From Ascidia mentula (lineage: Eukaryota; Chordata; Ascidiacea; Phlebobranchia; Ascidiidae), in NCBI GenBank assembly GCA_947561715.1, contig OX387203.1:9734001-9798000 (forward strand): 64,000 nt of DNA, given 5' to 3'. The notes below the pieces were generated by a model, which ran no database searches, had not been told where the DNA came from, and saw only the letters and a list, made by a program, of their open reading frames with translations. Made by a program: the position numbers and the translations under genes. Shown here piece after piece: positions 612 to 46,028 of the stretch (position 1 is its first letter; every line of letters starts with the position of its first letter).

Positions 612-770
612 CACTTCACAACTCTCGACTTCCCGCAGGGTGGGTCACTCCTCCCTTCCACACGTGTTATTAATGATCACGCATGTTTTCGGGCAAGTGA
701 TCCAGTTTTGCAAATCCGAAACAGTGCAGCTTACTCCCGTGGATACAACGTCATTGCGTTGCAGGACGGT
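612..770 (-). pseudogene. Relic of a TSP1/EGF exon (copy 1)
   Basis: It resembles the live exon at 9939-10175: the stretches matching CGGEECPTL and the asparagine-rich NNTCG segment are recognisable on the minus strand. The reading frame is interrupted and no exon can be drawn. The same relic sits at 6005-6165 in the other duplication copy, so decay preceded the duplication. Confidence 0.55.
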
Positions 771-21345: not shown

Positions 21346-21691
21346 AATTTCTTCCAATTAAGAGATTTGTATAAAAATTTTGGTGCAGCTAACACTTTTG
21401 GTAACGAGATCCAATTGATATACTTTACACCATGTATGAAAAAATCGTCATCTAATGCACAAAAAAATATGGTAACAAATTTTTTGTTACAGCAAATTTA
21501 ACGATATATTTCACTTCAAAAATTTTTTTTGCGAGATACCAGAAATTTAACAAAATTTTCCGAAACGAAATTGTTCAATTTGGAACGTAACTTTGTTACT
21601 CAGAACGGTTTTGTTAACGGTATTTCAGAGTGAATGGAAAATTGCATTATGACCCATTACCGTCTAAAAAGTCTATCCGAGGAACGAAAAT

Positions 21692-23082
21692 ATGTTCCAA
21701 CATCAAAAATTATGTTCTCCGAAACGAAAATTCAGTTCGGGCAAAAAAAATTCAGTTCCTGAAACGGTAATTCCGTTCCGGGAACGAAAATTCTGTTCAA
21801 GCAAAAAAAATTCTTTCCAGTATCGAAAATTATGTTCCCCTAACGAAACTTATGTTCCAGTAACGAAATTTCTGTTCCAGTAACAAAAATTCTGTTCCTG
21901 TAACGAAAATTCTGTTCCCGTGACTAAAACTCTGTTCCAGTAACGAAAATTCTGTTCCAGTAACGAAAATTCTGTTCCAGTAACGAAAATTCTGTTCCCG
22001 TAACGAAAATTCCGTTCCAGGATCAAAAAGTCACATTTTCGAACGACATTTATAGGTCGCATATCAACAATTTTCTTGAAAGAATGACAATTGTTTCCTT
22101 GGATCGAAAAGGTACCTTCAACGGGAATGTAATTATTCCTCATAGTACGATAATTATGTTCCAAAAACGAAATTTCCCGTAACTAAAATTCTGTTCCAGT
22201 AACGAAAATTTTGTTCCCGTAACAAAAATTCCGTTCCCGTAACGAAAATACTGTTCCAGTAACGAAAATTCCGTTCCCGTAACTAAAATTCTGTTCCCGT
22301 AACTAAAATTCTGTTCCAGTAACGAAAATTCCGTTCCCGTAACGAAAATTCTGTTCCAGTAACGAAAATTCCGTTCCCGTAACGAAATTCCGTTACTGTA
22401 ACGAAAATTCTGTTCCAAGATCAAAAAGTCACTTTTTTGAACGAGATTTAGGTCGCGTATCAACAATTTTCTTGAAAGAACGACAATTGTGTCCATGGAT
22501 CGAAAAAGTACCTTCGACAGAAATGTAATTAATACCTCATAGTACGATAATTATGTTCCAAAAACGAAATTTCTGTTCCAGTAACAAAAATTCTGTTCCA
22601 GTAACGAAAATTCTGTTCCCGTAACGAAAATTCCGTTCCCGTAACGAAAATTCCGTTCCAGTAACGAAAATAACGTTCCTGTAACGAAAATTCCGTTCCA
22701 GTAACCAAAATTCTGTTCCAGTAACGAAAATTCTGTTCCAGTAACGAAAATTCCGTTCCCGTAACGAAAATTCCGTTCCAGTAACGAAAATTCCGTTCCC
22801 GTAACGAAAATTCCGTTCCAGTAACTAAAATTCTGTTCCAGTAACGAAAGTTCTGTTCCAGTAACGAAAATTCTGTTCCCGTAACGAGAATTCTGTTCCA
22901 TGAACGAAAATTACGTTCCAGTAACGAAAATTCCGTTCCCGTAACGAAAATTCTGTTCCCGTAACGAAAATTCCGTTCCAGTAACGAAAATTCTGTTCCA
23001 GCAACAAAAATTCCGTTCCCAGAATAAAAATTCGGTTCCAGGAACGCAAATTCTGTTCCGGGAACGAAAATTATGTTCCATG
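21692..23082. repeat. 20-bp minisatellite with two 140-bp spacers
   Basis: The unit is close to GTTCCAGTAACGAAAATTCT in tandem with C/A and T/C variants. Two spacers of about 140 bp, at roughly 22020-22158 and 22418-22556, are near-copies of each other (ATCAAAAAGTCAC to CGATAATTATG), so the array also has a longer period of about 400 bp. Because 20 bp read three times gives 60 bp, the minus strand shows long open frames with a 20-residue repeat (NFRYGNGIFVTGTEFSLLEQ). These are almost certainly not genes. The flanks (21580-21650 and 23290-23400) hold related GAAACGAAATT sequence. Confidence 0.93.
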
Positions 23083-25514: not shown

Positions 25515-26326
25515 TTAGTGCTCCAACGGTGAAGGGCTCAATCTCGGGCAGTTGGTTTCCATACATGAGAGACAGATAGATTTGAAATTTCCAGCTAAAA
25601 TGTTGTACGTTATAAACCAAATTTCTAATTTGACAACGTTGGTTTTAAAACAAATATCAAAATACTTACGGAATACTCTACAAGACAAATACTTATAGGA
25701 CTTTCCCGTTTCGTCAGTCTGACAGTAAACAGGACATAAATTGCTGCGAATCCACGTAGCGTAAATCTGGGCATGTGTTTGCTGAACACCTGAAACGATA
25801 TGCTATTGTAATAATCTAAAATAAATATGTTTGGCTTACGCAGTAATATTAAATACAATGGCATGATAGGCAGGATCGCCCCACTGCGCAGGTCCTTGCT
25901 TAGCAATCACAGCTAACGTATCGCGATCATGAGGTTTGCAGGCTTGGCAGCCTAGCTGGATCAGCCACTTTCTCCTGACAAGTCGGAGCAAGATTTGAAA
26001 AATCAAGTTCCCGGTGAGGTCTGAACTCACGACCCTGAGCTAACCAGGCCCAACGCTGCACCAACTGAGCTACAGGAGCTCTGTGGTTTCACGGGGTTGT
26101 GGTCAAGGTACACTGGTGCGCAAGCGCACAACAGTTATTTGGCTAAGCTTGAATGTCAAATCATTTTACAATAAGCACTCCTCTCCAAAAAATTGCATGT
26201 TTCTACACTACACATGCAGTGAAGTTTTGATTTATTTTATCTGTACTTACCAACAGCAGCAGTTCCTTGTGATTGTTTGACAAACGAAAGCATCATGAAC
26301 AAAGCAAAAGTAATCAAAACCTTCAT
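25515..26326 (-). CDS. Six-cysteine secreted peptide, type 1 (copy A1)
   Basis: There are three exons: 26251-26326, 25670-25789 and 25515-25594, GT-AG borders, both introns in phase 1, giving 91 residues. Exon 1 is a signal peptide (MKVLITFALFMMLSFVKQ, then SQG as a likely cleavage site). Exon 2 carries CPVYCQTDETGKSYKYLSC and exon 3 carries ICLSCMETNCPR and a short tail. The six cysteines follow C-P-x-Y-C-x13-C-x10-C-x2-C-x4-C-P-R, shared with the neighbouring copies. I do not recognise the family. Size, leader and paired cysteines suggest a disulphide-stabilised peptide acting outside the cell, such as a defence, signalling or reproductive peptide; this is inference. A SINE sits in intron 1. 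Confidence 0.85.
25858..26080 (-). mobile_element. tRNA-derived SINE in intron 1 of A1
   Basis: The minus strand has a tRNA-like head (26005-26080) with an A box (TAGCTCAGTTGG) and a T arm GTGAG-TTCAGAC-CTCAC. The anticodon arm is abnormal, so it is not a working tRNA. A tail of ~150 bp (to GCGCAGTGGGGCGATCCTGCC) also occurs, diverged, at 48.4 kb. The same insertion is at the same intron position in B1 and C1, so it predates the tandem duplications. Confidence 0.7.
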
Positions 26327-29110
26327 CTTAACCAATACGCAAATTTGAATGCACTACAAAATGCTTGCGTTTATTTTTGGCCATCAACGTAGCCTTACAC
26401 ACTGCCTGGCGCTCGAGGCTATATCGCAAATGTCAAAATTCGTTTATCGTGTGGCTATGCGACAATAATTGACACTGTGTATTGATTTATTCTTGTGCTG
26501 CATTTTTATATTTATACAGAACCAAAACGTTTGAAGTCAATTAAATAAAGCACTTTGTTGCTGATATAACTGCCAAGTATGGCACCCAAGCAAAGGGTGT
26601 TTTTGAGAGAAAATCTTTAACTGTTTGGAAAAAATAAAACGCTAAATTCATAAAAAAACATTTCCCACTTTGGTAGTAAACTAAATGTATTTTTTTCTTA
26701 CTTGATAAATATTAATGTTTCTTATGCAAGGCTAAAAGGTCTGACAGACATCAACAACTTGTAATATTTTATTTCAGAACATGGCAAAATTTGTTTGTGG
26801 ACCATATTTCCAATGTATGTAGGTCGGTGATGCATTCCACGTTACAGCTAACTTTCGATTAAAAAGGCATTTGTAATTACAGTGCCCGTAGAAGGTCATT
26901 GTTGTGCAATTTTCTGACAATTCAAACGGTACAAATAGGTATTTATGACGCAAGCACATCGCTGAGTATTGATGGGGGCAAGTTTATTGTATTGTGCCTC
27001 AGGCTATAACGTCATCTAAGTCTGTGGATGATTTCTCCGCAGATAGTTTTATAATTTCAACATCAGTTGTCTCGGTTGAAACAAATGTGTTTTTATGTGA
27101 TTCTTAATTTGTCACAAAAAACTTATGCTTGTACTTTGAATGCTTAAAATTCTAAAAAAAAACACCAACTCTATAAAGTTGTGCGTATATTATGCAAACA
27201 TTTGATCCTACAACTGTACGCTGCACTATTGGATTACTTAAAGCATAGCTGGTCCTAACAACATAATTGCCGCGTCGTGCATTCTGCTACGTGATGCAGC
27301 ATTACTGCTTCTTAAAGTAGTTTTGATTTAACACATTAAACTTACAATTATGGCTAAAATGAACGCAGGCAACATGAATTATGTCTACAGTGATTGCCTG
27401 TTTTTTTTACGTGTTTGTAAGTGATCCCGGAACAAAGGTCAAACAGTGACAGTATTTCCGGGAATTGTATGAATTTACTCCTTGATAAAAATTATATTAA
27501 TATAGTGAGGCGGCCGCGTCGCAATGGTGAGTAAAAGAAATGTCCACCCCTTTTTGAAGTGTAAATGTACATTGGTCATACCAATGTTGTGAGTACACTG
27601 ACTCTGTTCATGTTGCAAAATTATGATGCAGTAGGATGCCAAGTGACACGAGCTGTTTATTTTTAACCTTCGGCATGCCAAGAAATTACACAAAATTTGG
27701 TCACGTTTGTTGAAGATTGCTCTAAACTGGAATTCTAAAAAATGCAATCGTACGCCCAGATCGACCTTTACATGGTGAAAGCTATAGTAAGTTTTCTTCT
27801 TTAAAAGCAGTGAAAAATGTTCTTCATTGCTACAATTATATGTGTAATATATAATCAAAATTGACCCTTTGCTGTGATTCACAACACACAAGATTTGCGC
27901 GGTCTGCGTTTCTCTTTGTCATTAACGTACACAGCTTGACGTTTGAGGCTATTTCGTAAACGTGTAAACTGCGAATGGATCTGTTTACTGCAATAAAGGA
28001 CTTGCTCAAATGATTTTATCGTGAAATGTGTTGTTTGCTACATATGTACATATCTACACACAACGATGAGGTTTAAACTAAAACATTTTAATCACGTTGT
28101 TGTCGGCGTTGTCAAGCATGCTGCCCATGAAAAACCTTTTTCATTAAATTTTTCTCTTCTACGTTCTGGAAAGTGAAAACGGCGAAGAGATATTATCCAA
28201 AACTTTGTACACATCAACAAATATAGTAGTTGGTGTGTTTCAGTGATCAAGTTTGCTTATCATTCATAGTTTTAAGGTCGAAGTGCGCATACAGGTATTG
28301 GCTACGGTGTCAACTTTGATAAGAAAATGTGTTTTTCTCCTCAATTTTGCCAAAGGCTACTTTTACCCTTCGTCATGTTTACAGCTACGTGACACAGCGT
28401 TGATCATTCCTAATTCGTATATATATCATCCTTTTTGTAAAAGTCCAATATTTAAATAACTGCTAAATTGCTGGTATCCTAAGTAAATACGGCAATTTTC
28501 AAACAAATGTTTTAAATTCCATTCAAACACGATAAATGTTTGGTTGCTTTTGCACTCGTTTTTTCGCAGCCGTTTGTTTGCACTCTTGTTTGTCTCCGTT
28601 TAACACAGACCTGCAATCAATACCAGTCTGACCACAGCCTGGGACATCGGTGACAATATTACGGATGACAATTGTAAATTATGGTGATAAAATTGGTCGT
28701 GCACCCCAAAGGTAAAGTTCCATATAGTTCTGGTAACAATTTATCAATGCGGTTTGTATTTAATTACGATGTTTTACTTCACGTTTTGTATACATGTTCC
28801 ATGTCAGGCAAATACAGCTTTCATCGTGAACTACTGGGACACAGTGCAGAAATATATTGGATTTTAATTTATTCTGACATTTGTATCTTCAAGACAACAC
28901 AAAATTTGCAAAGGCATTGATTTGGTTAGCAATGAATTAATGTTCATGCAAAAGTTGTATTTTATTCAATTGTTAAAAATTTTGTTTTCTGTTTCTTAAA
29001 ATATTTGGTAAACTGTTTCATTCGAAATGAATTTTTATGAAACCCGAAATTTATTTTTTAAATGTACAGTTGTTTGTTCGAAAAAATCATTTTGGTTCAT
29101 TCAAAAATTG
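26327..29110. other. Spacer between A1 and A2
   Basis: It is paralogous to 36.1-38.9 kb and 43.5-45.3 kb. A minus-strand frame at 26774-26959 (FYGHCNYKCLFNRKLAV) might be an old exon, but its counterparts near 36.7 and 43.8 kb are broken. A cysteine-bearing frame around 28560-28640 is open in the 38.5-kb copy only. I see no gene I can support. Confidence 0.45.
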
Positions 29111-29762
29111 TTACACGGGATCCGGAGCATACATGGGGGCTTCGGTAACCCGGGCAAAGATGTTGATATCTCGTTGTATGATTCTCGGGCATTTGTGTTC
29201 AAGGCAATATGTGCAGACCGTTTTAAAAAATCCAGCTGAAAACAATTTAGTCTGTTTTAATATGCTTTGCAAAGTGAAATTAGACCTGATTAGCTACGTT
29301 ATTTAATTTTGAACACACAATGACACTTTCTTTAAGTAACAATCAGTTAAATATTTCTGCAATTAAAAAACATCTGTATACCAAGCACGTTTAATTGTTG
29401 CTTTAAAAATCTAGCAAAAATACTCACAGAAATTTACACAAGACGAATATGTGTACCTCCCATTTTTCTTCATGCAGAAAATCGGACAAAATGTATTGCC
29501 AAACATTCCTGCAAATATCAGAATCATTTATTGCTAATCGATACCAATACGATATTGTAATATCTGAGAATACATTTCGATACAAATAAATCGTATATTT
29601 TATTTATCTTAGCGGGAATATTAAACCAAATACATGTTTGTCCACGCTCCTTATCAATTTATTTATGTAATTTTTGTTTTGCTTATACTTACGGATGGTC
29701 CAAAATCCTGGCTCAACAAACGAAAACATGACAAACAACGTCAAGATTATTAAAATTCTCAT
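29111..29762 (-). CDS. Six-cysteine secreted peptide, type 2 (copy A2)
   Basis: Exons 29693-29762, 29428-29508 and 29111-29235 join in phase 1 to 91 residues. Exon 1 is the leader MRILIILTLFVMFSFVEPG. Exon 2 carries FCPIFCMKKNGRYTYSSC and exon 3 carries FFKTVCTYCLEHKCPR and a tail ending MYAPDPV. Cysteine spacing is C-P-x-F-C-x11-C-x10-C-x2-C-x4-C-P-R, two residues shorter in the first loop than type 1. The tail after the last cysteine (about 25 residues, IFARVTEAP) is absent from type 1. The leader lost two residues relative to B2 and C2. Upstream sequence has a conserved CCTTTAAATGG that may act as a TATA-like box. Confidence 0.87.
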
Positions 29763-30645
29763 TTTGGGTTTATTCTTCCTATGAGATCTTCAGCAAATTT
29801 TTACCAAGCAACCAATGGTGACCAGCTTGACAATGCTCTTCCATTTAAAGGATTATTGGCATGCGATCAGTTTCAAAACAACCCAAGGTCATTTTCCGTT
29901 TAGAACGAAGAATGCTGAATAGTGCTTACCATCCGAAAAAGGGCAACCACTGCACACGTTAACCGTGTGTGTCTTTGACATAATCGTATACAACTTCGGC
30001 TTTAGGCTATTTCACAGAGCTTTTGGTTGTGTATCTGTCTTCAGCAACATTGAACTATTGGAAATATTGTTTCGCACGCGACGTAGCAGTTGTTTGCCAA
30101 TACACATGAATACATGTGGAAAATACTCTTACTATGTTTTTAGTGAAGGTGACAAGCGTGCTTGCGACCTCAATGTATAACAGTACACGACCATTAAACA
30201 TTATTCATCAGATTGACATAAATCCCACAATAACAAACACAATTTTCGGAAATATGCGTTTCTTGTAACTTATTCCGAATCGTGTGAATATGCAACAATA
30301 TTAGAAGGAAATAGCTCTTTTACTCGATTTACAGCACAATTGACCCTTGCTTTTCTGAGTTTGTTGAGATACTCAGTATTTCAAAAAGAGTGCAGTCGAT
30401 TAGCAGCATAAGAAAGTTTGAGTAACACTCATGTAGAGTACCAAGGAACGTCGTAAATTCATTCATTAGTTAATTTGCCCTCACGAACACCAATTGAAAC
30501 ACATTATTTCGGAGCAATTACTGAAGTTAAAGCTGTGACGATGTGGGCAGGGAGACGCTGAAGTAACCCGAGGGTTTTAAAAGTCAAGCGCACCTGGAGG
30601 TCTATTTGAAACTTACATTGTAATAACACAAAAATAATTAAAGGA
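29763..30645. other. Upstream region of A2
   Basis: It contains the promoter-proximal sequence of A2 (TTTAAATGG near 29850) and is paralogous to 39.6-40.2 kb and 46.0-46.6 kb. No further gene is recognised. Confidence 0.5.
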
Positions 30646-31260
30646 AACAATGGTGACTACCTTGACAATGCTCTCCCATTTAAAGGATTATTGGCAGCAT
30701 GCGATTAAAAAACCATCCGAAAAAGGGCAACCACTGCACACGTTAACCGTGCGTGTTTTGGACATAATCGTATACAATTCCGCCTTTAGGCTATTGCGCA
30801 GAGCCGATGTTTCGGTGGTATATCTATCTTCAGCAATGATGAACTAATGGAAAAATTCTTTCGCACGCGAAGTAGCAGTTGTTTGCGAATACACATGAAT
30901 GAATGCGGAAAATACTCGTATCACGTTTCTAGTGAAGGTGACAAACATGCTTACAAACTCATTGTATAACAGTAAGCGATCATTAATGATTTTTCATCAC
31001 ATTGACATGAATCAAACATTGACAACACATGTTTCGGTAATATGCTATTATTGTAGCTGATAACGAGTCATGTGAATATGCCACACTATTAGAAGGAAGT
31101 AGCTCTTTTCTCGATTTACAGTACATTTGACCCTTGCCTTTCTGAGTTTGTTCAGATTCTCCGTATTTCAAAAAGAGTGCCGTCGATTAGCAGCATAAGA
31201 AAGTTTGAGTAACACTCATGTAGTACCAAGGAACGACGAAATTTACTGAAAAATATACTT
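30646..31260. repeat. Second copy of the type 2 promoter region, without a gene
   Basis: From ACAATGGTGACTACCTTGAC through CCATTTAAAGGATTATTGG and onward it repeats 29806-30480, but the exons that should follow on its left are missing. It is an orphan promoter-region duplicate present only in the leftmost block. Confidence 0.7.
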
Positions 31261-33150
31261 GAGTCTCCTTGAATCGCTAAATCATGGACGAAACCAGTTG
31301 ACCTTACGGTGTATCTTTATCCAGAAGCGAAATATATCGTTACAAGGTTAAGCAGTTGCAAATCATAATCGCTTGGTTGGTATGAATTTTGTAATTTCGC
31401 TGTTAAATCTGTGACGGTGAATAAGCTAATTACGATATGGTGATAGATTGCGTGATGAAGGTATCCTATAAAAACAATCAAATGCCTTGGAGCTTTTTTC
31501 TGTTGTGTAATTTCTTGGCGTTGGAAAAGGTCAAACACTTGACAGAAAGTTCAACGTAACCGAGCTCTATTTACATCCGTTGTGCTTCAGGCTATTAGCA
31601 AAGGTTCACAAAACTTTTGAAAAAAATCTGTAACGATCCGCTTCTTGCTTTCCGGACGACTTGCATTCTATAAAGACGAAAGAATACAATTCTGGAATTT
31701 TTATGTTCAAACCGTCGCAGTCTGGTACCTCGCGCCATAATAAAGGAATATCGCTCGTTAATGGTACAAAGGTATTCCACATAAATTAACAACTACGATA
31801 TTTGTACTCTTTTTCGATGTGGAATTAATTTACAATCACCTATAGCTCCACGCGGTCCCGCAGAAATCGCTTCTCCTATGAAACCACGAATTCCACTTCG
31901 AGAAAGATTGGTCTGTGGCGTCACTCTTGCGCTGTGGGCAATCTAGCATGCGGTAGATGCGATAGAGCGAAAACGTTTCGAGTCCGATAACGCCTACATG
32001 ATGTACTTAAAAACACGTTAACCAGACAACCGTCATTTTCCACCTTTCTTCCTCAGATTGCTGTGGGGTATGAAATAGGCACCTAACACTGTAGTCACTT
32101 GATTTGTGGTCATTATACTGTGCTCTAAATGTTTAGTTAGGCAATTAACTTAACCTACAACAGATTTAAGATCACAGTATGGTGAAAAAAGTGACGAAAA
32201 AATAGTACTAAATAAAATACAAAAAATGCACGAGATAACCAGAGTGATAAAAAAAATCACAGAATTTATTAAAGTAACGTTAAATTGTTTTCCTCACGGT
32301 GGTGTTTCATCCGCGCAAGTTTCAAGTGCGTGACCGCAAATGTTGATGCAGAAAAGCAAGGAAATTATTTATCGAAGTAAACTGAAATTTACTGATCCAC
32401 TGTGGCAATAACGACACCCGTTTGAATTACAAAGCACACATACGACATTGTTAATTTGCTTTGGTTTGGTCTGTTTTTTTGTCAAAAAATGTTTTTAACT
32501 AAATAGATTTCAAAGAAAATTTATCGACTAATTTGCGCTAATTTCGGCATATTCATTCACAATTCTTACAAAATATTATAGCTCTGTGAAGAATTTCCCT
32601 TCGTAAAATAATCCAGCCTGAGTTCGTCGCTATACCTATGATCGATTGTGAAGTTTGTTACTGCCCTCTCCTGGTCTGAAGAGGTTGCATATAACCTGAT
32701 CGTTATTTCGTCGTTTATCGCCCTACAGTGTATCGTACTCTTATAGGACATATTAATATTCAACTATTATTACACGCGCAAATCAGCCTTAATAATCATT
32801 GACCGAAAGGTACCACAAACTGGAAATCTGTGAGTCTGCCAGTCAGCCTTTGCCACAGTCACCAGCTGCACTAATGAGATCTTCAGGTCGAAACAGTGTG
32901 TAGGATGACACGCCTTCCTGAAAGCCCAAAATGGCGAAGAGACATTATCAAACAGATTTGCCACATAAGCGGATAAAGCAATTGGTGTGTTTCTGTGATC
33001 AAGTTAGCTTATTATTATTTATATTTGAGAGGTGTCTACAGACAGGATCCGGCTGTGTTGTCAACTTTGCTGAAAAAATGTGCCTTTCTCCTTTTTTGCT
33101 TTAAATTTTACACTTCGGACACAAAAATAAATTTCTGAATTATTTCTTTT
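31261..33150. other. Right part of the leftmost array block
   Basis: It is paralogous to 40.2-41.2 kb and 46.6-48.2 kb. It includes a decayed copy (about 31850-32025) of the plus-strand exon described at 41011-41186. It also includes a damaged hammerhead at 32866-32913, and from about 32910 sequence matching 28.12-28.35 kb that leads up to the last exon of a lost peptide copy (D). Confidence 0.5.
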
Positions 33151-33153
33151 GTG

Positions 33154-33366
33154 CTACCTGGGAGCGAAAGGCACCCGAGCAAAGTAGGTAAACTGCAGTT
33201 GTCTTCGTCTTGGGCATTCGTGTTTAAGGCAGAAGTCACAGACCAGTTTAAAAAGTTGGAAAATGAGGAGCACGATCGAACTTCCAAGCCAGATTGTCAT
33301 TGAGTAAGAACCAAGTGCAATCTGTGAGAGCAACACACGAAATACGTAAACACCAAATTTTATCAA
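33154..33366 (-). pseudogene. In-frame chimera: transporter last exon fused to peptide last exon
   Basis: After an acceptor AG at about 33326 the frame reads IALGSYSMTIWLGSS…IFQL, the start of the last exon of the SLC2A genes. It then passes without a break into FKLVCDFCLKHECPRRR…YFARVPFAPR-stop, the last exon of a type 2 peptide gene. The join lies in TTTTTAAA, present in the peptide exon. It would put a cysteine-rich tail on a transmembrane helix, but the other nine transporter exons and a promoter are missing here. It is most likely a non-expressed product of unequal recombination. Confidence 0.75.
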
Positions 33367-33775
33367 TCATTCAAACAAAGGATTGGAAAAGAAGTGTCAT
33401 CGAATTGTCGTAAGCAGTGGTTCGCAAACTGCACGTGGTTTCGACTTTCCATGGCGTCATGTCGTTATCGAAAGCAATCGTTATCATAGAGTTATAACAA
33501 GTAAGTGGCAATAGAGTTGAATCTTTTCAAAAAAGTCGCATGAAAAAAAGTTTGAGAATCACTGGCCTAGAGTAAAATCTTTGTTACTGTTGTGCATTTG
33601 TATGTTGCGGTTGCAAGGGTACAGACAAAACTAAGTAGGCATCTAAAAGCTTTGGCATTTTTTACTTTAAATCACAGTAGAATGAGGATGGTGCCACAGC
33701 CATATGATCTTACTAAATGACAATAAAGTTTGTTGATTTTTCGCGGTTATTTTCTATACGATTTGTGATCTGTGG
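33262..33775 (-). pseudogene. 3'-end fragment of an SLC2A transporter gene
   Basis: It matches 48880-49410 of the first transporter gene, covering part of its last exon and the adjoining intron with an hAT-like MITE. It shows that the block that was duplicated to make the array once included the transporter 3' end. Confidence 0.8.
33415..33564. mobile_element. hAT-like MITE (copy 1)
   Basis: The 150-bp element begins CAGTGGTTCGCAAAC and ends TTTGAGAATCACTG. These are inverted copies of the CAGTG-type termini of hAT elements. The same insertion is at 49056-49205, so it moved here by segmental duplication, not transposition. A clear 8-bp target duplication is not visible. Confidence 0.65.
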
Positions 33776-34800
33776 CGACGGTCTGTGGCGACGCTCTTGC
33801 GCTGTGGGCAAGCTAGCATGCGGTAGATGCGATATATCGAAAACTTTTCGAGTCCGATAACGCCTACATGATGTACTTAAACACACGTTGACCAGACAAC
33901 CGTCATTTTCCACCTTTTTTCCTCAGATTGCTGTGGGTATGAAATAGGCATTGTAGTCACTTGATTTGTGGTCATTTTACAATGCTCTAAATGTTTAGTT
34001 AGGCAATTAACTTAACCTACAGCAGATATAAGATCACAGTATAGTGTAATAAGTGACGGAAACATAGTACAAACTAAAATACGAAAAAGCACCAGATAAC
34101 CTGGTTTTAAAACAAGGTTTTGAAACAAGCATTATTAAATAAACTTTTTTAATTGCTATTAACATTTCAATAAATGTGGATTTATATAGGGCTAACATTG
34201 AGAAACGTGGCAGATTATGGCGAAAAGTCTTTTGTAAGAAATAACGCATTTTGCAAACTGCGTATATTTTTCGCGGCTTTAAATACTTTGTCTAGAAAAC
34301 GCTAAGTTCAATGCCTCATTTCTTCGCAATCTCTCTCCCTATGCAATTGTTCGTTTTATGCTTTTTGGTCATCCTGATGTAACTGATACAAATACCTTGT
34401 CCCTGTTCAGTGCAGTTCGCAAGAATCTGCGAGTTTAAAAAATTCTTTGATATCAACCCCAGATAGTTTTGTTATTTGGTTTGTTTGGTTTTTACCCTTC
34501 GTGTATATAAATATCGCTTATTCTTTTTCTCAAAATACCTTTACTTTCCTTGTATTATAACACGACAAAGGACACTATTTTAAGTTTTCGGACTGTCGTC
34601 TGATTGTCGTTAAATAATAATAAAAAAAAACGCAAACTGCGTAAAAATATTTTTGCGTTTGTTTCTGATACAACTAATTATTCTGATCACTTAATGACGA
34701 AGTCAAAAAAATGCAAAATCTATTGATTTATTGTAAAAGTTGAATCGAGTTCGTCATAAACTATTATATGAGAACTCAAGCAATGTATTTTTGTGAGAAA
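33776..34800. other. Junction between array blocks A and B
   Basis: 33776-34090 repeats 31915-32200, including a fragment of the plus-strand exon. Block B begins near 34110. 34400-34735 is not seen elsewhere in the window and shows no gene. Confidence 0.5.
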
Positions 34801-34801
34801 C

Positions 34802-34921
34802 TTATTCTTCACGTAGCATCACAAAGCGCCATGGGCAATCGGTTTCGACAATTTTAGAAGCTACGCAATATTGAATGAAGGCAATGGCCTTTGGGCGAAA
34901 ACAACTGCAGTCCGTCGCATT
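34802..34921 (-). CDS. Possible last exon of a third peptide subtype (block B)
   Basis: An open minus-strand frame reads NATDCSCFRPK…FIQYCVASKIVETDCPWRF and ends in TAA. It is present and open in the same frame at 42243-42362 (there YCVACKIVETDCPW, with the C-x2-C of the family restored). C-x2-C…C-P-W echoes the C-x2-C-x4-C-P-R of the known last exons. In this copy the acceptor AG is lost, and the frame phase does not match the phase-1 introns of the family. No upstream exon is identified. Confidence 0.3.
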   Translation of the reverse strand, partial: NATDCSCFRPKAIAFIQYCVASKIVETDCPWRFVMLREE

Positions 34922-35252
34922 ACCAGTAATTTATTCAATTGAAGAGTAAATATGTCCTCCACAACTATACCATTTCACAAAAACATGTTTAAAAATAGAA
35001 GTTGAAACACTTCGATGTCACTACCAATACACTCTGTGGTAAAGAGAAATAATTTCATCAGCAAAAATTGCCGACCAGTGGTAGATAGTCCGATGATGTT
35101 TTCTTCTTCGAAAATGTATAGCTTTTTGGCAGCACAAAAGTTTTTTATTGAAAACAAACAAATCTTGCTTGCATTAGTAAATTGACGACTTGCTTGCATT
35201 AGTAAATTGACGACTTGCTTGCATTAGTAAATTGCGAAGGCGTCCAACGGTA

Positions 35253-36065
35253 TTAGCCCGTTCTGGGGCAGTTGGTTTCCATACAGTAGAGGCAGATAGA
35301 TTTGAAATTTCCAGCTAAAATTTTTTACGTTATAAACCAAATTTCTAATTTGACAACGTTGGTTTTAAAACATATATCAAAATACTTACAGAATACTTTA
35401 CAAGACAAATACTTATAGAACTTTCCCGTTGCGTCAGCCTGACAGTAAACAGGACATAAATTGCTGCGAATCCACGTAGCGTAAATCTGAGAATGTGTTT
35501 GCTGAACGCCTGAAACGATATGCTATTGTAATAATCTAAAATAAAATAAATCTGTTTGGCTTACGCAGTAATATTACATGCAATGGCATGATAGGCAGGA
35601 TCGCCCCACTGCGCATGTCCTTGCTTAGCGATCACAGCTAACGTATCGCGATCATGAGGTTTGCAGGCTTGGCAGCCCAGGCAATGCAGCCTAGCTGGAT
35701 CAGCCACTTTTTCCTGACAAGTCGGAGCAAGATTTGAAAAATCAAGCTCCCGGTGAGGTCTGAACTCACTACCCTGGCCTAACCAGGCCCAACGCTCTAC
35801 CAACTGAGCTACAGGAGCTCAGTGGTTTCACGGGGTTGTGGTAAAGGTACACTGGTGCGCAAGCGCACAATTTTTATTTGGCTTAGCTTGAATGTCAAAT
35901 CATTTTACAATAAGCATTGCTCTCCAAAACATTGCACGTTTGCACACTACACGGGTAGTTAAGTTTTAATTTACTTTATCTGTACTTACCAACAGTAGCA
36001 GTTCCTTGTGATCGTTTAACAAACGAAAGCATCATGAACAAAGCAAAAGTAATCAAAACCTTCAT
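35253..36065 (-). CDS. Six-cysteine secreted peptide, type 1 (copy B1)
   Basis: Exons 35990-36065, 35390-35509 and 35253-35314 join in phase 1 to 85 residues. The leader MKVLITFALFMMLSFVKR is followed by CPVYCQADATGKFYKYLSC and ICLYCMETNCPRTG-stop, so the tail is shorter than in A1. Compared with A1, the second exon has five residue changes and hardly any silent ones, and none touches a cysteine. This is suggestive of diversifying change, though the numbers are tiny. A TATA box (TATAAATAAG) lies about 60 bp upstream of the ATG. The type 1 SINE is in intron 1. Confidence 0.87.
35583..35819 (-). mobile_element. tRNA-derived SINE in intron 1 of B1
   Basis: It is the same insertion as in A1, with the best-preserved head: AGCTCCT pairs with GGGAGCT, and GCTC/GAGC D-arm and GTGAG/CTCAC T-arm are intact. 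The anticodon stem is remodelled. It has one 14-bp CCCAGGCAATGCAG unit that A1 lacks. Confidence 0.7.
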
Positions 36066-36121
36066 CTTCACAAACTCGTAACTTTGAAAACATCACATAG
36101 CGTGTAGCATAGCGATACGCT

Positions 36122-36131
36122 CTTATTTATA
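36122..36131 (-). promoter_or_regulatory. TATA box of B1
   Basis: TATAAATAAG on the minus strand lies 57 bp upstream of the B1 start codon. The equivalent region is deleted together with the start codon in the dead copy C1. Confidence 0.6.
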
Positions 36132-38961
36132 CAAAATGACACTGACGCCGTGAGCCCGAAAACCACCTAAAGTAATTTTCTCTTTTGAATATCCTTGAAT
36201 GGTGAAACAAATTTCGCAAAATGCCTACCTTTCTTTTTGGCCATAAACTTACCCTATACACCCTGCCTGGCGCTGGAGGCTATATGGCAACTGTCAAAAT
36301 TCGTTTAGCGTGTGGCTGTTCGACAATAATTGGCACTTTGTGATGATTTATTCTTGTGCAAAGTTGCTACTTTGTGTACCTTTTCAGAATGAAAACGTTT
36401 GAAGTCAAATAAATAAAGCACTTTGTTGCTGATATAACTGCCAAGTAAGGCACCCAAGCAAAGCGTGTTTTTGAGAGAAAATCTTTAACTCTTTGGAAAA
36501 ACAAAACCTTGATTCATAAAAAAAAAACATTTCCAACTCTGACAGTAAACTAAATGTGTTTTTTTCTTACTTGATAAATATAAATGTTTCTTATGTAAGG
36601 CTAAAAGGTCTGAAAGACAACAACAACTTGTAATATTTTGTTTCGGAAAATGGCAAAATTTGTTTGTGGACCATGTTTCCAGTAATATGTAGCTCGGTGA
36701 TGCATTTCACGTTACAGCAAACTTCCGATTAAACAGGCATTTGCAATTACAGTTCCCGCAGATGGTCATTATTGTGCAATTTTTCCGAGATTTCAAACGG
36801 TACAAATAAGTATTTATGACGCAAGCACATCGCTAAGTTTGGATGAGGGCAAGTTTATTGTATTATGCCTCAGGCTATAAAGACATCCAAGTCTGTGGAT
36901 GATTTAGATAGTTTTATAATTTCAACATCAGTTGCCTCGGTTGAAGCAAATATGTTTTTATGTGATTCTTGCCACAAAAACTTATGCTTGTACTTTTGAA
37001 TGCTTAAAATTCTAAAAAAACAACAACTTTATAAAGATGTGCGTATAATATGCAAACATTTAATTCCACAACTGTACACTGCCCTATTTCATTACTTAAA
37101 GCATAGCTGTTCGTAACTACATAATTGCCGAGTCATGCATTCTGCTACGTGATGCAGCATTACTGCTGCTTAAAGTAGTTTTGAATTAACACATTAAACT
37201 TACAATTATGGCTAAAACGAACGCAGGAAACATGAATCATGTCTACAGTGATTGCCTGTTTTTTTACGTGTTTGTAGTGCACCCGGAACAAAGTTCAAAT
37301 AGTGACCCTATATCCGAGAATTGTATATATTTACTCTTTGATAAAAATTATATTAATATAGTGAGGCGGCCACGCCGCAATGGTAAGTAAAAGAAATGTC
37401 CACCCCTTTTTGATGTGTGAATGTAGATTGGTAAAATCAATTTTGTAAGTGAGTTGTACACTGGCTCTGTTCATGTTGCAAAATTATGATGCAGTAGGAT
37501 GCAATGATACGAACTGGTACAACATTTAACGCAGTTGAAATCGTGCATATCACCGATCAAATAGCCTTGAGCGCTATGCAACGCAACTACTTGACACGAG
37601 CTGTTTATTATTTAACCTTCGGCATGCCAAGAAATTACACAAGCGAAAAATGTTCGGGGGAATTAAGTCACGTTCGTTGAAGTTTGCTCTAAACTGGAAT
37701 ACTTTGTAATGCAATCGTACGCCCAGATCAACCTTTACATGGTGAAAGCTATGGTTGTTTTCCTTTACTCATATCAATGATGGTTACAGATTTTGTTAAA
37801 GACCAACTAATTTTATCTATGCTATGAAAATGCACACGAACTAATACAAAATCAATTATGCTTGAATTGAAGTTTTTAGTTGTTCAGCTAAACATTCTAG
37901 CACAAAAAAGCAGTGAAAAATGTTCTTCATTGTTACAATTACATGAATATAATCAAAGTTGCCCTTTGCTGTGACTCACAACACACAAGATTTGCGCGGT
38001 CTGCGTTTCTCTTTGTCATTAACGTACACAGCTTGACGTTTGAGGCTATTTTGTTAGCGTGACTGCGAATGGTTCTATTTACTGCAAAAAAGGACTTACT
38101 GAAATGATTTAGTCGTGAAATGTGTTGCTTGCTGCATATGTACATATCTACACACAACGATGAGGTTTAAACTAAAACATTTTAATTACTTTGTTGTCGG
38201 CGTTGTCAAGCATGCTGCCCACGAAAAAGACCTTTTTTATTAAATCTTTCTCTTCAACGTGCTGGAAAGTCAAAACGGAGAAGAGGTATTATCCAAAACT
38301 TTGTACACATAAACAAATATAGTAGTTGGTGTGTTTCAGTGATCAAGTTTGCTTATCATTCATAGTCTTGAGGTCGAAGTGCGCATACAGGATTTGGCTA
38401 CAGTGTCAACTTTGATAGGAAAATGTGTTCTTCTCCTCAATTTTGCCAAAGGCTATTTTTTCTTTTGTCATGTTTACAGCTACGTGACACAGCGTTAATC
38501 ATTCTTAAACGTATATATATCACCCTTTTTGTAAAAGTCCAATTTGAATAACTGCTAAATTGCTGGCATCTTAAGTAAATATGGCAATTTTCAAACAAAT
38601 GTTTTAAATTCCATTCAAACACGATAAGTGTTTGGTTGCTTTTGCACTCGCTTTTTTCGCAGCCGTTTGTTTGCACTCTTGTTTGTCTCCGTTTAACACA
38701 GACCTGCAATCAATACCAGTCTGACCACAGCCTGGGACATCGTTGACAATAAAAAACATAAAAAAAGAGAAAAAGAATTTCGTTTTCTGTTCCTAAAAAA
38801 ATATTTGGTAAACTGTTTCATTCGAAATGATTTATTATGAAACCAGAAATTTATTTTTTAAATGTACAGTTATTTCTTCGAAAAAATCATTTTGGTTCAT
38901 TTAAAAATTGTTACACTTTGGCAACAAAAACAATTCTTCTGTATTACTTTTGCGAAATTCA
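36132..38961. other. Spacer between B1 and B2
   Basis: It is paralogous to 26.4-29.1 kb. A minus-strand frame at 38437-38709 with several cysteines (TNGCEKSECK, FENCHIYLRC) is open here but shifted by one base in block A. I do not count it as a gene. Confidence 0.45.
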
Positions 38962-39610
38962 TTACGGAGCATACATGGGGGCTTCGGTAACCCGGGCAAA
39001 GATGTTGAATTGTCGTTGTATGATTCTCGGGCATTTGTGTTCAAGGCAATAGGTGCAGACCGTTTTAAAAAATCCCGCTGAAAACAATTTGCCTGTTTTA
39101 ATATTGTTTGCAAAGTGAAATTATACCTGATTAGCAACATTATTTAATTTTGAACATGTAATGACACTTTCCTTAAATAACAATCAGTTAAATATTTCTG
39201 CAACTAAAAAAAATCTGCATACCAAGCACGTTTATTTGTTGCTTTAAAAATCCAGCAAAAATACTCACAAAAATTTACACAAGACGAATATGTGTACATC
39301 CCATCTTTCTTCATGCAGAAAACCGGACAAAAACTATTGAAAAGCAAGGCTGCAAATATCAAAATCATTCATTGCCAATCGATACTATTACGATATTTTA
39401 ATATATGAGAATACATTTCGATACAAATAAATCGTATATTTTATTCATCTTATCGGGAATATTAAACCAAACACATGTTTTGTCCACGCTCCTTATCAAT
39501 TTATTGAGGTCTTTTTTGTTTTGCTTATACTTACTGATGGTCCAATTTCCATCTGATTGCTCAACAAACGAAAGCATCACAAACAACGTCAATATTATCA
39601 AAATTCTCAT
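38962..39610 (-). CDS. Six-cysteine secreted peptide, type 2 (copy B2)
   Basis: Exons 39535-39610, 39269-39349 and 38962-39077 join in phase 1 to 90 residues. The leader is MRILIILTLFVMLSFVEQ followed by SDG. Exon 2 carries FCPVFCMKKDGMYTYSSC and exon 3 FFKTVCTYCLEHKCPR with a tail ending MYAP-stop. It keeps the full cysteine framework of A2 and C2. Residues before the first cysteine differ most (LLFNS here, MFGNT in A2, MLRST in C2), while the segment between the second and third cysteines is nearly fixed. The upstream TTTAAATAG is a candidate TATA-like box. Confidence 0.87.
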
Positions 39611-41010
39611 TTTGGGTTTATTCTTCCTATAAGTTCTTCACCAAATATTTACCAAGCAACAAATGGTGACCAGCTTGACAATGCTCTCCTATTTAAAGGA
39701 TTATCGGCACGCGATCGGTTTCAAAACAACCCAAGGCCTTTTTTTTTGTTTTGAACGCAGAATGTTGATTGAAAACCATCTGAAAAAGGGCAACCACTGC
39801 ACACGTTAACCGTGCGTGTTTTTTGACATAATCGTATACAATTGCAGCTTTAGGCTATTGCGCATATTCTTTCGCACGCGACGTAGCAGTTGTTTTGCCA
39901 ATACACATGAATAAATGCGGAAACGACTCGTATCACGTTTCCAGTGAAGCTGACAAACATGCTTACAAACTCATTGTATAACAGTGAGCGTTCATTAATG
40001 ATTTTTCATCACATTGACACGAATCAAACATTAACAACACATGTTTCGGAAATATGCGATTCTTGTAGCTGATAACGAATCATGTTAGGAAGTAGCTCAT
40101 TTTCTCTGTTTACAGTACAATTGACCCTTGCTTTTCTGAGTTTGTTCAGATTCTCAGTATTTCAAGAGTGTGCCGTCGATTAGCAGCATAAGAAAGTTTG
40201 AGTAACACTCATGTAGAGTACCATGGACGCCGAAAAATGGTTTTACTGAAAAAAAACTTGAGACTCCTTGAATCGCTAAACCATGAACAAAACCAGTTGA
40301 CCTTACGTGTATCTTTGTATACAGAAGCGGCGAGAAATTTCGTTACAAGGTTAAGTAGTGGCAAATCATAAGTAGTTTGTTAGGTATGACTTATGTAACA
40401 CAGTAATTTGTCTGTTAAATCTATGATGGTTATTAAACTACGTACGATATGATGATAGATTGCGTGATGAAGGTTTCCTATAAAAACAATCAAATGCCTT
40501 GGAGCTTTTTTCTGTTGTGTAATTTCTTGGGATTGAAAAAGGTCAAACACAGAAATATACTGCTATTTTTGTTGCCAGGCATACTAATTAATCGGAATTG
40601 CTCTTCTGGCACTTAGTTTCTAAAGTGTTTATTGGAAACCAACGTTTCGTCTGCCATCCGGCGAGACTTCTTCAGGGTTATGTCAACAGTGAAGCATCAC
40701 GCACTTGACAGAAAGTTCAACAAAACCGAGCTTTATTTTCATCCGTTGTGCTTCAGGCTATTAGCAAAGATTCACAAAATTTTTGAAAAAAATCCGTAAC
40801 GATCCGCTTGTTGCTTTCTCGACGACTTGCGTTCTATAAAGATATAAGAAAAGGATTCTGGAATTTTTATGTTCAAACCATCGCTGTCTGGTACCTCGCT
40901 CCATAATAAAGGAATATCGCTCGTTAGTGGTACAAAGGTATTCCACATAAACTAATAATTACGACATTTGTGGACTTTTTCGATGTGGATTAATTTAAAA
41001 TCACCTATAG
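39611..41010. other. Upstream region of B2 and right part of block B
   Basis: It is paralogous to 29.8-31.8 kb. A roughly 130-bp segment near 40560-40690 has CATCCGGCGAGACTTCTTCAGGG, a repeat-like hairpin motif also seen in altered form near 2020, 7415 and 46710. No gene is recognised on the minus strand; the open minus frame at 40761-40946 is opposite decayed plus-strand coding-like sequence. Confidence 0.45.
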
Positions 41011-41186
41011 CTCCACGCGGTCCCACAGAAATCGCTTCTCCTAGGAAACCACGAATTCCACTTCGAGAACGATTGTTCTGTGGCGTCACTCTTGCGCTGT
41101 GGGCAAGCCAGTATGCGGTAGATGCGATATATCGAAAACTTTTCGAGTCCGATAACGCCCACATAATGTACTTAAACACACGTTGA
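41011..41186 (+). CDS. Unrecognised plus-strand terminal exon, repeated in the array
   Basis: After CACCTATAG (a good acceptor) an open frame reads PRGPTEIASPRKPRIPL…GVTLALWASQYAVDAIYRK…HIMYLNTR-stop, 57 residues in phase 1, with a hydrophobic core that could be a membrane segment. Related copies at 31850-32025, 33780-33895 and 47050-47220 are interrupted. No upstream exon was found. It may be the last exon of a small host gene caught in the duplicated block, or a retrocopy. I do not recognise the protein. Confidence 0.35.
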
Positions 41187-42242
41187 TCAGACAACCGTCA
41201 TTTTCCACCTATCTTCCTCAGATTGCTGTGGGTATGAAATAGGCACCTAACCATGGGTTTTTGTGTTAAGGCATTCTATAGGTAGCGTCTTGTCCAGCAT
41301 CTCATTTCAAAATGTATAGCAACGGTTGCTTTGTCACGTGATTTGATCTCGTTACTATTTTCTACGCAACAGCTGTGTTTTTATGTGATTGTATTGACCA
41401 GCTTAAATGTGTCGCCTTAGAGAAGTTCTTCATTGTTTTGTGTGACAGTGCGTCTTTTGTTAACTGTTCGCTGACCGTTAGTCCTTGGATCGCCCTTCTT
41501 TTTACGACACTTCGTTCGCTTTGTTTCCCTCCGGTTTAAATAATGAAACTTTCCGTGTGCGTTTAGCTGAGGCGGAGCGGGGCAGCGCAGCGGTACTGTG
41601 CTCTCCTCAGTTCGTAAATTCACTTAGTTTGGCGTTGGTATAATTGCGCATGTTAATTTCGAATCCAAAATAAAAAGGTAATAAATATTGGTGTAGTGTT
41701 TGCATCGAGAGTTAATAAAGTCAGGTTAGGAAAACACAACAATTAGAACTCACGTGCGATCTTATGCCAAATGCGTTAATCAAATAGGATTTCCCATCAA
41801 TCATTAAAAATTGTTAAGACCCGGATTGAGACTCATATTTGACATAACAGATTGCAACAAAATGTTTAGTTAGGCAATTAACTTAACCTACAGCAGATTT
41901 AAGATCACAGTATGGTGAAATAAGTGACGAAAAAATAGTAGAAAATAAAATACAAAAATCACCAGATAACCAGGTTTTGAAACAAAGGTTTTGAAACAAG
42001 CATTATTAAATAAACTTTTTTAATTGTTATTAACATTTCAATAAATGTGAATGAACAATGACAGACGTGACAGATTATGGCGAAAAGTCTTTTGTAAGAA
42101 ATAACGAACTTTTCAAACTGCGTATATTTTCCCGGCTTCAAATATTTTGTCAGAAAACATTCGATTTATTGAAAAAATTGAATCGAGTTCTTCATCGAGT
42201 TTATCATATATGAGTACTATGGAATATATTTTTGTGAGAAAC
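41187..42242. other. Junction between array blocks B and C
   Basis: 41240-41860 does not match the other blocks and shows no gene. Block C begins near 41860 with sequence matching 34000-34260. Confidence 0.45.
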
Positions 42243-42362
42243 TTATCCTTCACGTAGCATCACAAAGCGCCATGGGCAATCGGTTTCGACAATTTTACAA
42301 GCTACGCAATATTGAATGAAGGCAATGGTCTTTGGACGAAAATAACTGCAGTCCGTCGCACT
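42243..42362 (-). CDS. Possible last exon of a third peptide subtype (block C)
   Basis: Open frame SATDCSYFRPK…FIQYCVACKIVETDCPWRF, ending in TAA, directly after ACCAG. It differs from the 34802-34921 copy by a few residues but stays open, and carries C-x2-C and C-P-W like the known last exons. The frame would need a phase-0 junction, unlike the family. No upstream exons are identified, so this may be a relic. Confidence 0.35.
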   Translation of the reverse strand, partial: SATDCSYFRPKTIAFIQYCVACKIVETDCPWRFVMLREG

Positions 42363-42667
42363 CTGGTACTAGGAATTTTCCTCAATTGAAGAGTAAATTT
42401 GTCCTCCAAAGCGCAAACTATACCATTTCACAAAAACTTGTTTAAAAATAGATGTTGAAATACTATATTCACTACCTACCAATACACTCTGTGGTAAAGA
42501 AAAATAAATTCATCAGCAAAAATTGCCGACCAGTTGTAAATATTCCGATGACGTTTTCTTCTCCGAAAATGTTTAGCTTTTTGGCAGTACATAATTTTTT
42601 TGTAGATAACAAACAAATTTTGCTTGCATTAGTAAATTGATGACTTGCTTGCATTAGTGGATTGGGA

Positions 42668-43411
42668 AGGCGTCCAACGGTGTAGGGCTCGTTCTCGGGC
42701 AGTTGGTTACCATAGAGTAGATGCAGATAGTTTTGTGAAAAAAAATTATAATTTGACAACGTTGGTTTTGAAACATATTTTAAAATACTGAATACTTTAC
42801 AAGTCAAATACTTCAGTCTGACAGTAAACAGGACATAAATTGTTGCGAATCCACTTAGCGTAAATCTGAGCATGTGTTTGCTGAACGCCTAAAACGATAT
42901 GCTATTGTAATAATCTAAAATAAAATATATATGTTTGGCTTACGCAGTAATATTACATGCCATGGCATGATAGGCAGGATCGCCCCACTGCGCAGGTCCT
43001 TGCTTAGCGATCACATATAACGTATCGCGATCATGAGATTTGCAGGCTTGGCAGCCCAGGCAATGCAGCCCAGGCAATGCAGCCTAGCTGAATCAGCCAC
43101 TTTTTCCTGACAAGTCGGAGCGAGATTTGAAAAATCAAGCTCCCGGTGAGGTCTGAACTCACGACCCTGGGCTAACCAGGTCCAACGCTCTAACAACTGA
43201 GCTACAGGAGCTCAGTGGTTTCACGGGGTTGTGGTCAAGGTGTCAAATCATTTTGCAATAAGCACTCCTCTCCAAGAAAATGCATGTTTGTACACTACAC
43301 ATGTAGTTAAGTTTTAATTTATTTTATCTGTACTTACTAACAGTAGCAGTTGCTCGTGATTGTTTGACAAACGAAAGCATCATGAACAAAGCAAAAGTAA
43401 TCAAACCTTCT
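42668..43411 (-). pseudogene. Dead type 1 peptide gene (copy C1)
   Basis: Leader sequence (FALFMMLSFVKQS) remains at 43337-43411, but a deletion removes the start codon and promoter. In exon 2 (near 42797-42891) the sequence after CPVYCQTE has lost the Lys-Ser-Tyr-Lys stretch and shifts to a stop. Exon 3 (near 42668-42745) has lost its acceptor and opening codons. The SINE in intron 1 is kept. It is the only member of the array that is clearly non-functional in all three exons. Confidence 0.85.
42963..43212 (-). mobile_element. tRNA-derived SINE in intron 1 of C1
   Basis: It is the same insertion as in A1 and B1, with two tandem CCCAGGCAATGCAG units where B1 has one and A1 none. Confidence 0.7.
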
Positions 43412-45344
43412 GGCGCTCGAGGCTATATCGCAACTGTCGAAATTCGTTTAGCGTGTCGCTATGCGACAATAATTGACACTGTGTATTGATTTATTCTTGT
43501 GCTGCATTTATATTCTTGCACAGAACTAAAACGTTTGAAGTCAAGTAAATACAGCACTTTGTTGCTGATATAACTGCCAAGTAAGGCACCCAAGCAAAGG
43601 GTGTTTTTGAGAGAAAATTGTTAACTTTTCGGGAATAAAAGAGCGTTAAATTCATAAAAAAAAACATTTCCAACTCTGGCAGGGAACTAAATGTATTTCT
43701 TTTACTTGATAAATATAAGCACATAATTATTATGTAAAGCTTGTATGCCTGAAAGTCATCAACTACTTTTGATATTCTATTTTAGGCAAAATTTGTTTGT
43801 GGACCAACTGCGGCATATTTCTAAAAATATGTAGCACGGTGATGCATTCAACGTTATAGCAAACTTTCGATTAAAAAGGCATTTGTAATCATTGTTGTGC
43901 AATTTTCTGACATTCAAACGGTACAAATAGGTATCTATGACGCACGCACATTGCAGAGTTTTGTTGAGGGCAAGTTTATTGTATTGAGCCTCAGGCTATG
44001 ACGTCATCTTAGTCTGTGAATGATTTCCCGCAGATAGTTTTATAATTTCAATATCAGTTGCCTCGGTTGTAGAAAATGTGTTTTTTATGTGATTCTTAAT
44101 TTGCCACAAAAAAATTGTGCTTGTAGTTTTGAATGCTCATAATGCTACAAAAAACTACGAATAAAGATGTGCGTATAATATGCAAACATTTGATTCTACA
44201 CTTGTACGCTGCACTAATAGAAAACTTACAAGCATAGCTGTTACAAGCATAACTACATAATTGCCGCGTCATGCATTCTGCTACGTGACACATCGTTACT
44301 GCTTCTTGACGTAGTTTTGATTTAAACACATTTTTTTCGAAGTTCAACACAAGACACTTTTTTTCATTGATAAACCAACGTTATCAACTTTTACACTTAA
44401 AAGAAAGTAAAAAACTATTTGATGTCTCGTGTATGTGATGGTGACATGACAAAAATGTACACAAAACCAGTGTTTAATAAACAACGAAAAAAGAAAACAG
44501 TGATTGGCTGTTTTGATATGTTTGTAGTGCACCCGGAACACAGGTAAAAAGTAACCGTATTTCAAAGAATTGTGTGTATTTACTCTTTGATAAAAATTAT
44601 ATTAATAAAGTGCGGGGGCCGCGCCGCAATGGTGATTAAAAGAAATGTCAAATCCTATTTTGATGTGTGAATGTAGATTGGTCATACCAAGCTATACCAA
44701 TTCTCCACGTGAGTTGAATACTGGCTCTGTGCATGTTGCAAAATTATGATGCAATGGGATGCAATGACACGAACGGGTACAACATTTAACGCAGTTGAAA
44801 TCGTACTTGCGATTGAGATCAACCTTTACGTGATGAAAGCTGTTGTAAGTTTCCTTTGCTCATATCAATGATGGTTACAGATTTTATTAAAGACCAACTA
44901 TTTTTATCTATGTTATGAAAATGCACACGAACTAATATAAAATCAATTATGCTTGAATTTAAGTGTTTATTTGATCAGCTAATCATTCTAGCACAACAAA
45001 GCAGTGATAAATGTCGTTTATTGCTACAATTATATGCATCATATATAATCAAAATTTGATATTTGCTGTGACTCACTGCACACACGATATGCGCGGTCTG
45101 CGCTTCTCTCTCTCATTAACGTACACAGCTAGATATTTCGTAAACGTGAAAGCTGCGAATGGATCTATTTCCTGCAATGAAGAACTTAACGATATGATTT
45201 AGTCGTGAAATGTGTTGCTTGCTACATATGTACATATCTACGAACAACGACGAGGTTTAAACTAAAACATTTTAATCACTTTGTTGTCGGGTTGTCAAGC
45301 ATGTTAAATTTTTACATTTTAGCTACAAAAATCAATCTTCCATA
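43412..45344. other. Spacer between C1 and C2
   Basis: It is paralogous to 26.4-29.1 and 36.2-38.9 kb but more diverged and with deletions. No gene is recognised. Confidence 0.45.
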
Positions 45345-46028
45345 TTACTTCTTTTGCGGTATTACTACGCGATCCGGAGCATACTGAGCAATCACGGGAG
45401 CCTCGGTAACCCGAGCGAAGATGTTGAAATGTCGCTGTATGTTTCTTGGGCATTCGTGTTCAAGGCAGTATGTGCAGACCGTTCTAAAAAATCCAGCTGA
45501 AAAAGTATAGGAGGTTTTGATATGCTTTGCAAAGGTAATTTATATCTGATTAACTAAGTTATTTAATTTTGAACATATAATGACACTTTCCTTAAGTAAC
45601 GATCAGTTAAATATTTCTGCAACTAAAAAAAATCTGTATAACAAGCACGTTTAATTGTTGCTTAAAAAATCTAGCAAAAATACTCACAAAAATTTACACA
45701 AGACGAATATGTGTACCTCCCATCTTTCTTCATGCAGAAAACTGGACAAAAAGTACTGCGAAGCATGCCTGTGAATATCAGAATCATTTATTGCCAATCG
45801 ATACTATTACGATATTTTAATATCTGAGAATACATTTCGATACAAATAAATCGTATATTTTATTCATCTTAGCGGGAATATTAAACAAAATACATGTATT
45901 GTCCATGCTCCTTTCAATTTATTTAGGTCATTTTTGTTTTGCTTATACTTACTGATGGTCCAAAATCCTTCTGATTGCTCAACAAACGAAAGCATCACAA
46001 ACAACGTCAGTATTATCAAAATTCTCAT
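45345..46028 (-). CDS. Six-cysteine secreted peptide, type 2 (copy C2)
   Basis: Exons 45953-46028, 45688-45768 and 45345-45496 join in phase 1 to 102 residues, the longest of the family. The leader is MRILIILTLFVMLSFVEQ followed by SEG. Exon 2 carries FCPVFCMKKDGRYTYSSC and exon 3 FFRTVCTYCLEHECPR. The stop used by A2 and B2 is read past, giving a tail that ends APDRVVIPQKK. An upstream in-frame ATG would add 15 polar residues before the leader and is unlikely to be used. All six cysteines and both phase-1 introns are kept. Confidence 0.87.

Follow-up and report, generated by a model that had tools for sequence, protein, structure and literature searches.

Does a cluster of short, minus-strand reading frames on chromosome 7 of the ascidian Ascidia mentula represent genuine genes for secreted peptides, and if so, what might these peptides do? 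The question arises from a stretch of 64,000 nucleotides (C71, 9,734,001-9,798,000; hereafter the window, to which positions refer unless the chromosome is named). Here, the original prediction had described five loci as a tandem family of three-exon genes for secreted six-cysteine peptides. Short, intron-split and fast-changing genes of this kind easily escape gene finders.

ATG-to-stop models could be rebuilt at all five loci, with end positions agreeing exactly and all genes on the minus strand. Gene A1 (25515-26326; 91 amino acids) consists of a leader exon (26326-26251), an exon encoding CPVYC...C (25789-25670) and an exon encoding CxxCx4CPR (25594-25515). The same order is found in B2 (29111-29762; exons 29762-29693, 29508-29428 and 29235-29111; 91 amino acids), A3 (35253-36065; exons 36065-35990, 35509-35390 and 35314-35253; 85 amino acids), B4 (38962-39610; exons 39610-39535, 39349-39269 and 39077-38962; 90 amino acids) and B5 (45345-46028; exons 46028-45953, 45768-45688 and 45496-45345; 102 amino acids). 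Each product contains six cysteines. Two subtypes can be told apart among the five: A, with A1 and A3, and B, with B2, B4 and B5. As predicted, all ten introns have GT-AG sites and lie in phase 1, and the motif C-P-x-[FY]-C-x(11,13)-C-x10-C-x2-C-x4-C-P-R is present in every model. Only the proposed ceiling of about 90 codons for open reading frames is slightly exceeded, as the frame of A1 stays open for 95 codons.

The claim of a five-gene tandem family holds for the five loci, but the family extends further, to two more subtypes (C and D), a dead copy and another cluster. In total, we modelled 12 intact genes, all on chromosome 7. Besides the five in the window, three (A6, A7, B8) lie together in inverted orientation at 12.559-12.566 Mb, 2.8 Mb from the window, and make up a second cluster; four are divergent: C1 (10,318,548-10,319,202), D1 and D2 (4.867-4.870 Mb) and D3 (11.923 Mb). 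All 12 have three exons, GT-AG introns in phases 1/1, conserved splice sites (the donor reads GTRAGT in 23 of 24 cases) and six cysteines in the arrangement C-P-x-[FY]-C-x(11-13)-C-x(9-10)-C-x2-C-x4-C-P-[RK]. The strict C-P-R ending thus describes the five window genes, but has to be relaxed to C-P-[RK] across the 12 models. This count leaves out the dead A copy as well as a remnant near 12.5546-12.5550 Mb, two exon-3 fragments (at 33.2 kb of the window and at 12.568 Mb) and the 11.947-Mb locus, where no leader exon was found and the third cysteine is missing. Since the genome searches score the best candidates only, 12 is a lower bound on the size of the family.

These searches covered 195.8 Mb in 79 contigs; the published assembly is given as 197.0 Mb in 95 scaffolds (PMC11109543). 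On contig C79, COX1 can be translated without interruption in the mitochondrial code of ascidians, AGR codons standing for glycine at positions where glycine is usual in COX1. In protein searches of the whole genome, all matches with E < 0.05 lay on chromosome 7. One of them, at C71:2100845 (E 0.0201), was rejected as a relative, since inspection by eye suggests a piece of a transporter gene. Matches at C52:4609918 (E 0.0747) and at position 19721198 of contig C1 (E 1.31) were dismissed as noise when their sequences were inspected. Five more weak matches off chromosome 7 had E values from 0.154 to 1.51.

The D genes are only 29-32% identical to B4. A profile comparison of the mature A/B/C products with the mature D products gave 98.5% probability (E 3.7e-15), and the matches extend past the cysteines. 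In a phylogenetic tree, D forms a separate, long-branched group and C1 sits on a long branch of unsure placement; one of the nine inner branches passes the support mark.

In A1 and A6, intron 2 is 75 nucleotides long, a multiple of three, and contains no stop codon, so that these two genes could also be read with the intron retained. This raises the alternative that the paralogues are correctly recognised, while partial retention of the A-type intron 2 lengthens the product of these two. In each of the other ten models (A3, A7 and the eight of types B, C and D), the same reading soon runs into a stop; all 12 genes keep their splice sites, and the longer product would carry seven cysteines. We therefore regard intron retention as very improbable.

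Whether the exons are under selection as protein-coding sequence was addressed with five disjoint paralogue pairs (A1-A6, A3-A7, B2-B8, B4-B5 and D1-D3), by shuffling the observed changes between sites that share the same base. Silent changes were in excess in the leader (10 observed, 4.2 expected; P=0.0043) and in the core (28 observed, 13.7 expected; P=0.0003). The tail showed a weak excess (12 observed, 8.4 expected; P=0.099) and the stretch before the first cysteine none (5 observed, 5.1 expected). One of the core changes would by itself create a stop codon, but no stop is present in the genes as they stand. Nei-Gojobori estimates of pN/pS were 0.19 for the leader, 1.42 for the pre-cysteine stretch, 0.29 for the core and 0.60 for the tail, and whole-gene dN/dS ranged from 0.23 to 0.96 in 12 pairs within subtypes A and B. 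The ratio of nonsynonymous to synonymous changes likewise differed between the pre-cysteine stretch (20:4) and the core (33:27; p=0.023). The six-cysteine core is thus under purifying selection, and no such constraint is seen on the residues that precede its first cysteine. When nonsynonymous change in this stretch was compared with change in the introns, an excess appeared in B4-B5, a pair chosen post hoc (8 changes at 27 sites, against 39 at 375; p=0.0076), and was not significant when the pairs were pooled (p=0.075).

A contrary explanation holds that the loci are non-coding or decayed repeats that resemble exons by chance. One A copy and several fragments are indeed dead, and the exons overall diverge slightly more than the introns (136/1368 against 138/1769, p=0.041). 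Exons 2 and 3 exceeded the introns in all eight single-pair comparisons, which overlap, with p<0.05 in three of the eight. At silent sites of the core, too, change exceeds that of the introns (27/112 against 138/1769, p=4e-7); base composition, gene conversion and a transition bias in how sites are counted may all play a part, and we base no conclusion on this difference. Plain neutral drift predicts no such excess of exons over introns; counting bias or base composition may produce it. In simulations of eight pairs, the chance of keeping an intact frame and all six cysteines was P 0.09-0.14 for A1-A3, A1-A6 and B2-B8 and P 0.004-0.014 for A1-A7, B2-B5, D1-D3 and D2-D3; the closest paralogue pairs are by themselves insufficient as proof of coding. 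What speaks against chance resemblance is the silent bias of the changes in leader and core, together with a motif and intron phases that are kept in 12 of 12 models over strongly diverged subtypes. We consider chance repeats highly unlikely. Because motif, three-exon layout and phases recur in seven chromosome-7 genes outside the window, and because changes in leader and core are silent-biased, the observation exceeds chance. The silent bias in leader and core makes these loci appear to be selected protein-coding genes, and we are confident that they are real, selected genes for secreted disulphide peptides. The predicted three-exon genes for secreted six-cysteine peptides are accordingly backed by gene structure, selection and seven further members, with the leader judged by eye.

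The window also contains a sixth, A-type copy that the original prediction lacked. It lies on the minus strand at 42672-43404 (tblastn pieces 43404-43336, 42886-42812 and 42734-42672) and is dead: the start-codon region is gone, a deletion shortens exon 2, and exon 3 is degenerate and has lost one cysteine. In transcription order, the array reads B5, dead A, B4, A3, exon-3 fragment, B2, A1, and with the dead copy included it resolves into three B-A units. The fragment is a B-type exon-3-like sequence on the minus strand (33154-33321; lone exon-3-like piece 33157-33261), in frame after a stretch that by eye looks like the final exon of a neighbouring transporter gene. Neither a leader exon nor a CPxFC exon was found for it, and it is probably a remnant. 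A counterpart in the second cluster (near 7816-7998 of locus L052) is about 95% identical.

Sugar-transporter-like gene pieces, tandemly related, occupy 48.9-59.9 kb on the minus strand. PF00083 was found in two of the four minus-strand pieces scanned, and 49.4-52.0 kb is 71-92% identical to 57.6-59.9 kb. A 39-residue piece at 48869-48985, taken for an intact transporter exon, gave no match in a Pfam scan. Elsewhere in the window, open stretches at 9093-11734 (minus strand) bear EGF_CA and thrombospondin type 1 domains. There are also two tandem arrays, one of 7 kb (14279-21305; unit 190/379 bases) and one of 1.4 kb (21683-23080; unit 20 bases), and a direct duplication of 3 kb, 96% identical (228-3262 and 5626-8647).

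Intron 1 of the three A-type copies in the window carries a tRNA-Thr(GGT)-like element on the minus strand. It is located at 26005-26080 in A1 (region 25838-26132), at 35744-35819 in A3 and at 43137-43212 in the dead copy. Searching the genome with the A1 gene gave 134 matches, three of which span the whole gene; the remainder cover the element only. The element is present on many chromosomes and often forms tandem arrays with a 366-base period. ARAGORN called a tRNA in all five other element loci scanned (L004-L008) and none in L002, the locus covering A6.

Signals flanking the genes were sought in the same models. A poly(A) signal occurs within 90 nucleotides past the stop in no more than five of the nine A, B and C models (A1, A6, A7, B2 and B5), in A1 at 64 nucleotides; this low share counts against the proposed reading. 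Within the 22-100 nucleotides searched upstream of the ATG, a TATA-like box at 68-69 nucleotides was found in 4 of 12 models (A7, D1-D3). In addition, the 12 upstream stretches of 500 bases each (225 for D3) were scanned for eight motifs and compared with shuffles. AP-1 (P=0.015) and ETS (P=0.01) sites were above shuffles, an excess that is not convincing given that eight motifs were tried and that the stretches share ancestry. The paper describing the assembly names a deposited poly(A) RNA-seq set (ERR10378036; PMC11109543), which allows a direct test of expression.

From the sequences, we infer that the family is transcribed and secreted and that its products form disulphides. Exon 1 would provide a hydrophobic leader of about 21 residues, removed upon secretion; a hydrophobic N-terminus is seen by eye in the model sequences. 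Exons 2 and 3 would then supply the product proper, 58-89 residues from position 22 onwards, and three disulphides would hold its conserved six-cysteine core. Near the C-terminus, D1 and D3 each carry two additional cysteines, both of which D2 lacks; such joint occurrence is to be expected if the two form a disulphide. In charge, the A, B and C products are cationic, from +2 to +8, and the D products, which have proline-rich tails, are acidic (-1 to -9).

What, then, could these peptides do? As in the original prediction, defence, signalling and reproduction are all candidate roles. Our tentative answer is that they form a diversifying family of small secreted six-cysteine peptides, in which host-defence effectors or recognition peptides are the leading candidates. 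Antimicrobial or microbe-binding peptides would here have been duplicated in tandem. We rank defence first based on the tandem turnover, the cationic A, B and C products and the conserved core with its unconstrained flank; as a role for the peptides, it is largely conjecture. The acidic D products argue against it, as does the scarcity of kappa-B sites: GGGRNNYYCC was found in a single one of the 12 upstream stretches (C1) and GGRNWWYYCC in none. LPS-inducible antimicrobial peptide genes of Ciona have been reported to carry NF-kappa-B sites (PMC7387483).

Tandem duplication and fast change suit reproductive or signalling peptides equally well. Signalling or structural peptides specific to this lineage, such as hormone-like ligands, tunic matrix components or protease-inhibitor-like modules, would account for a six-cysteine core that is kept across divergent subtypes and for the acidic charge and proline-rich tails of the D products. 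We think this unlikely: Pfam matches up to E 10 included no inhibitor or hormone family, and hormones do not usually show several near-identical copies, dead ones and fast change. Less likely again are reproductive peptides of the egg coat, follicle, seminal fluid or sperm attraction, diversified by gamete recognition or sexual conflict. The unconstrained pre-core stretch, the tandem turnover with its dead copies and the location of every modelled member on a single chromosome would fit; however, immunity suits the same pattern, and Pfam gave no credible match whatever. A bolder and rather improbable extension is that these genes are the founders of a new tunicate disulphide framework, seen here on a single chromosome, in which the six-cysteine core stays fixed and the freely varying N-terminal stretch sets the specificity of self/non-self or gamete recognition.

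Host defence remains the preferred, if speculative, role. The original prediction had recognised no named family, and this holds within the Pfam, NCBIfam and PDB sequence searches. All 12 members were scanned against Pfam-A (best E 0.063, DUF7772 in three members) and NCBIfam (best E 0.13), with nothing over the curated cut-offs. Sequence-profile searches of the PDB gave no credible match with a 5-member profile (best E 0.65), nothing at E up to 10 with 9 members, and one match with 12 members that is not credible (E 1.5). Neither defensin or big defensin models nor the Kazal model were among the Pfam matches of the 12 members at E up to 10, and the only match named after an antimicrobial peptide was Myticin-prepro (one of 12 members, E 0.092). 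A pattern search of viral contigs yielded 17 stretches, none confirmed as a relative. The framework was also not encountered in the literature searched, which comprised titles and abstract openings and had most subscription journals outside its scope.

By eye, the sequence near the second and third cysteines has a faint resemblance to Kazal inhibitors. Kazal inhibitors pair their cysteines 1-5, 2-4 and 3-6, and the C-x2-C-x4-C-P-R half of the family motif does not fit them. The cysteine-stabilised antimicrobial peptides of marine invertebrates (defensins, big defensins, mytilins and myticins) combine a leader with a small product of six or eight cysteines and belong to diverse families. The Ascidia mentula genes likewise encode a leader and a small cysteine product, with a spacing that we take to differ from all four. 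Big defensins are described as a diverse gene family with six cysteines (PMC3182236). The kind is already known, a tandem family of small, putatively secreted cysteine peptides, and its predicted framework matched nothing searched; the 12 members turn this framework into a search pattern usable on other tunicates. The Ciona peptides Ci-MAM-A and Ci-PAP-A are described as linear and alpha-helical and were screened for zero cysteines (PMC7387483). Like these, the A, B and C products are ascidian, cationic and, by prediction, secreted; unlike these, they carry six cysteines. If defensive, the Ascidia mentula peptides would add a cysteine-stabilised class beside the cysteine-free antimicrobial peptides of Ciona.
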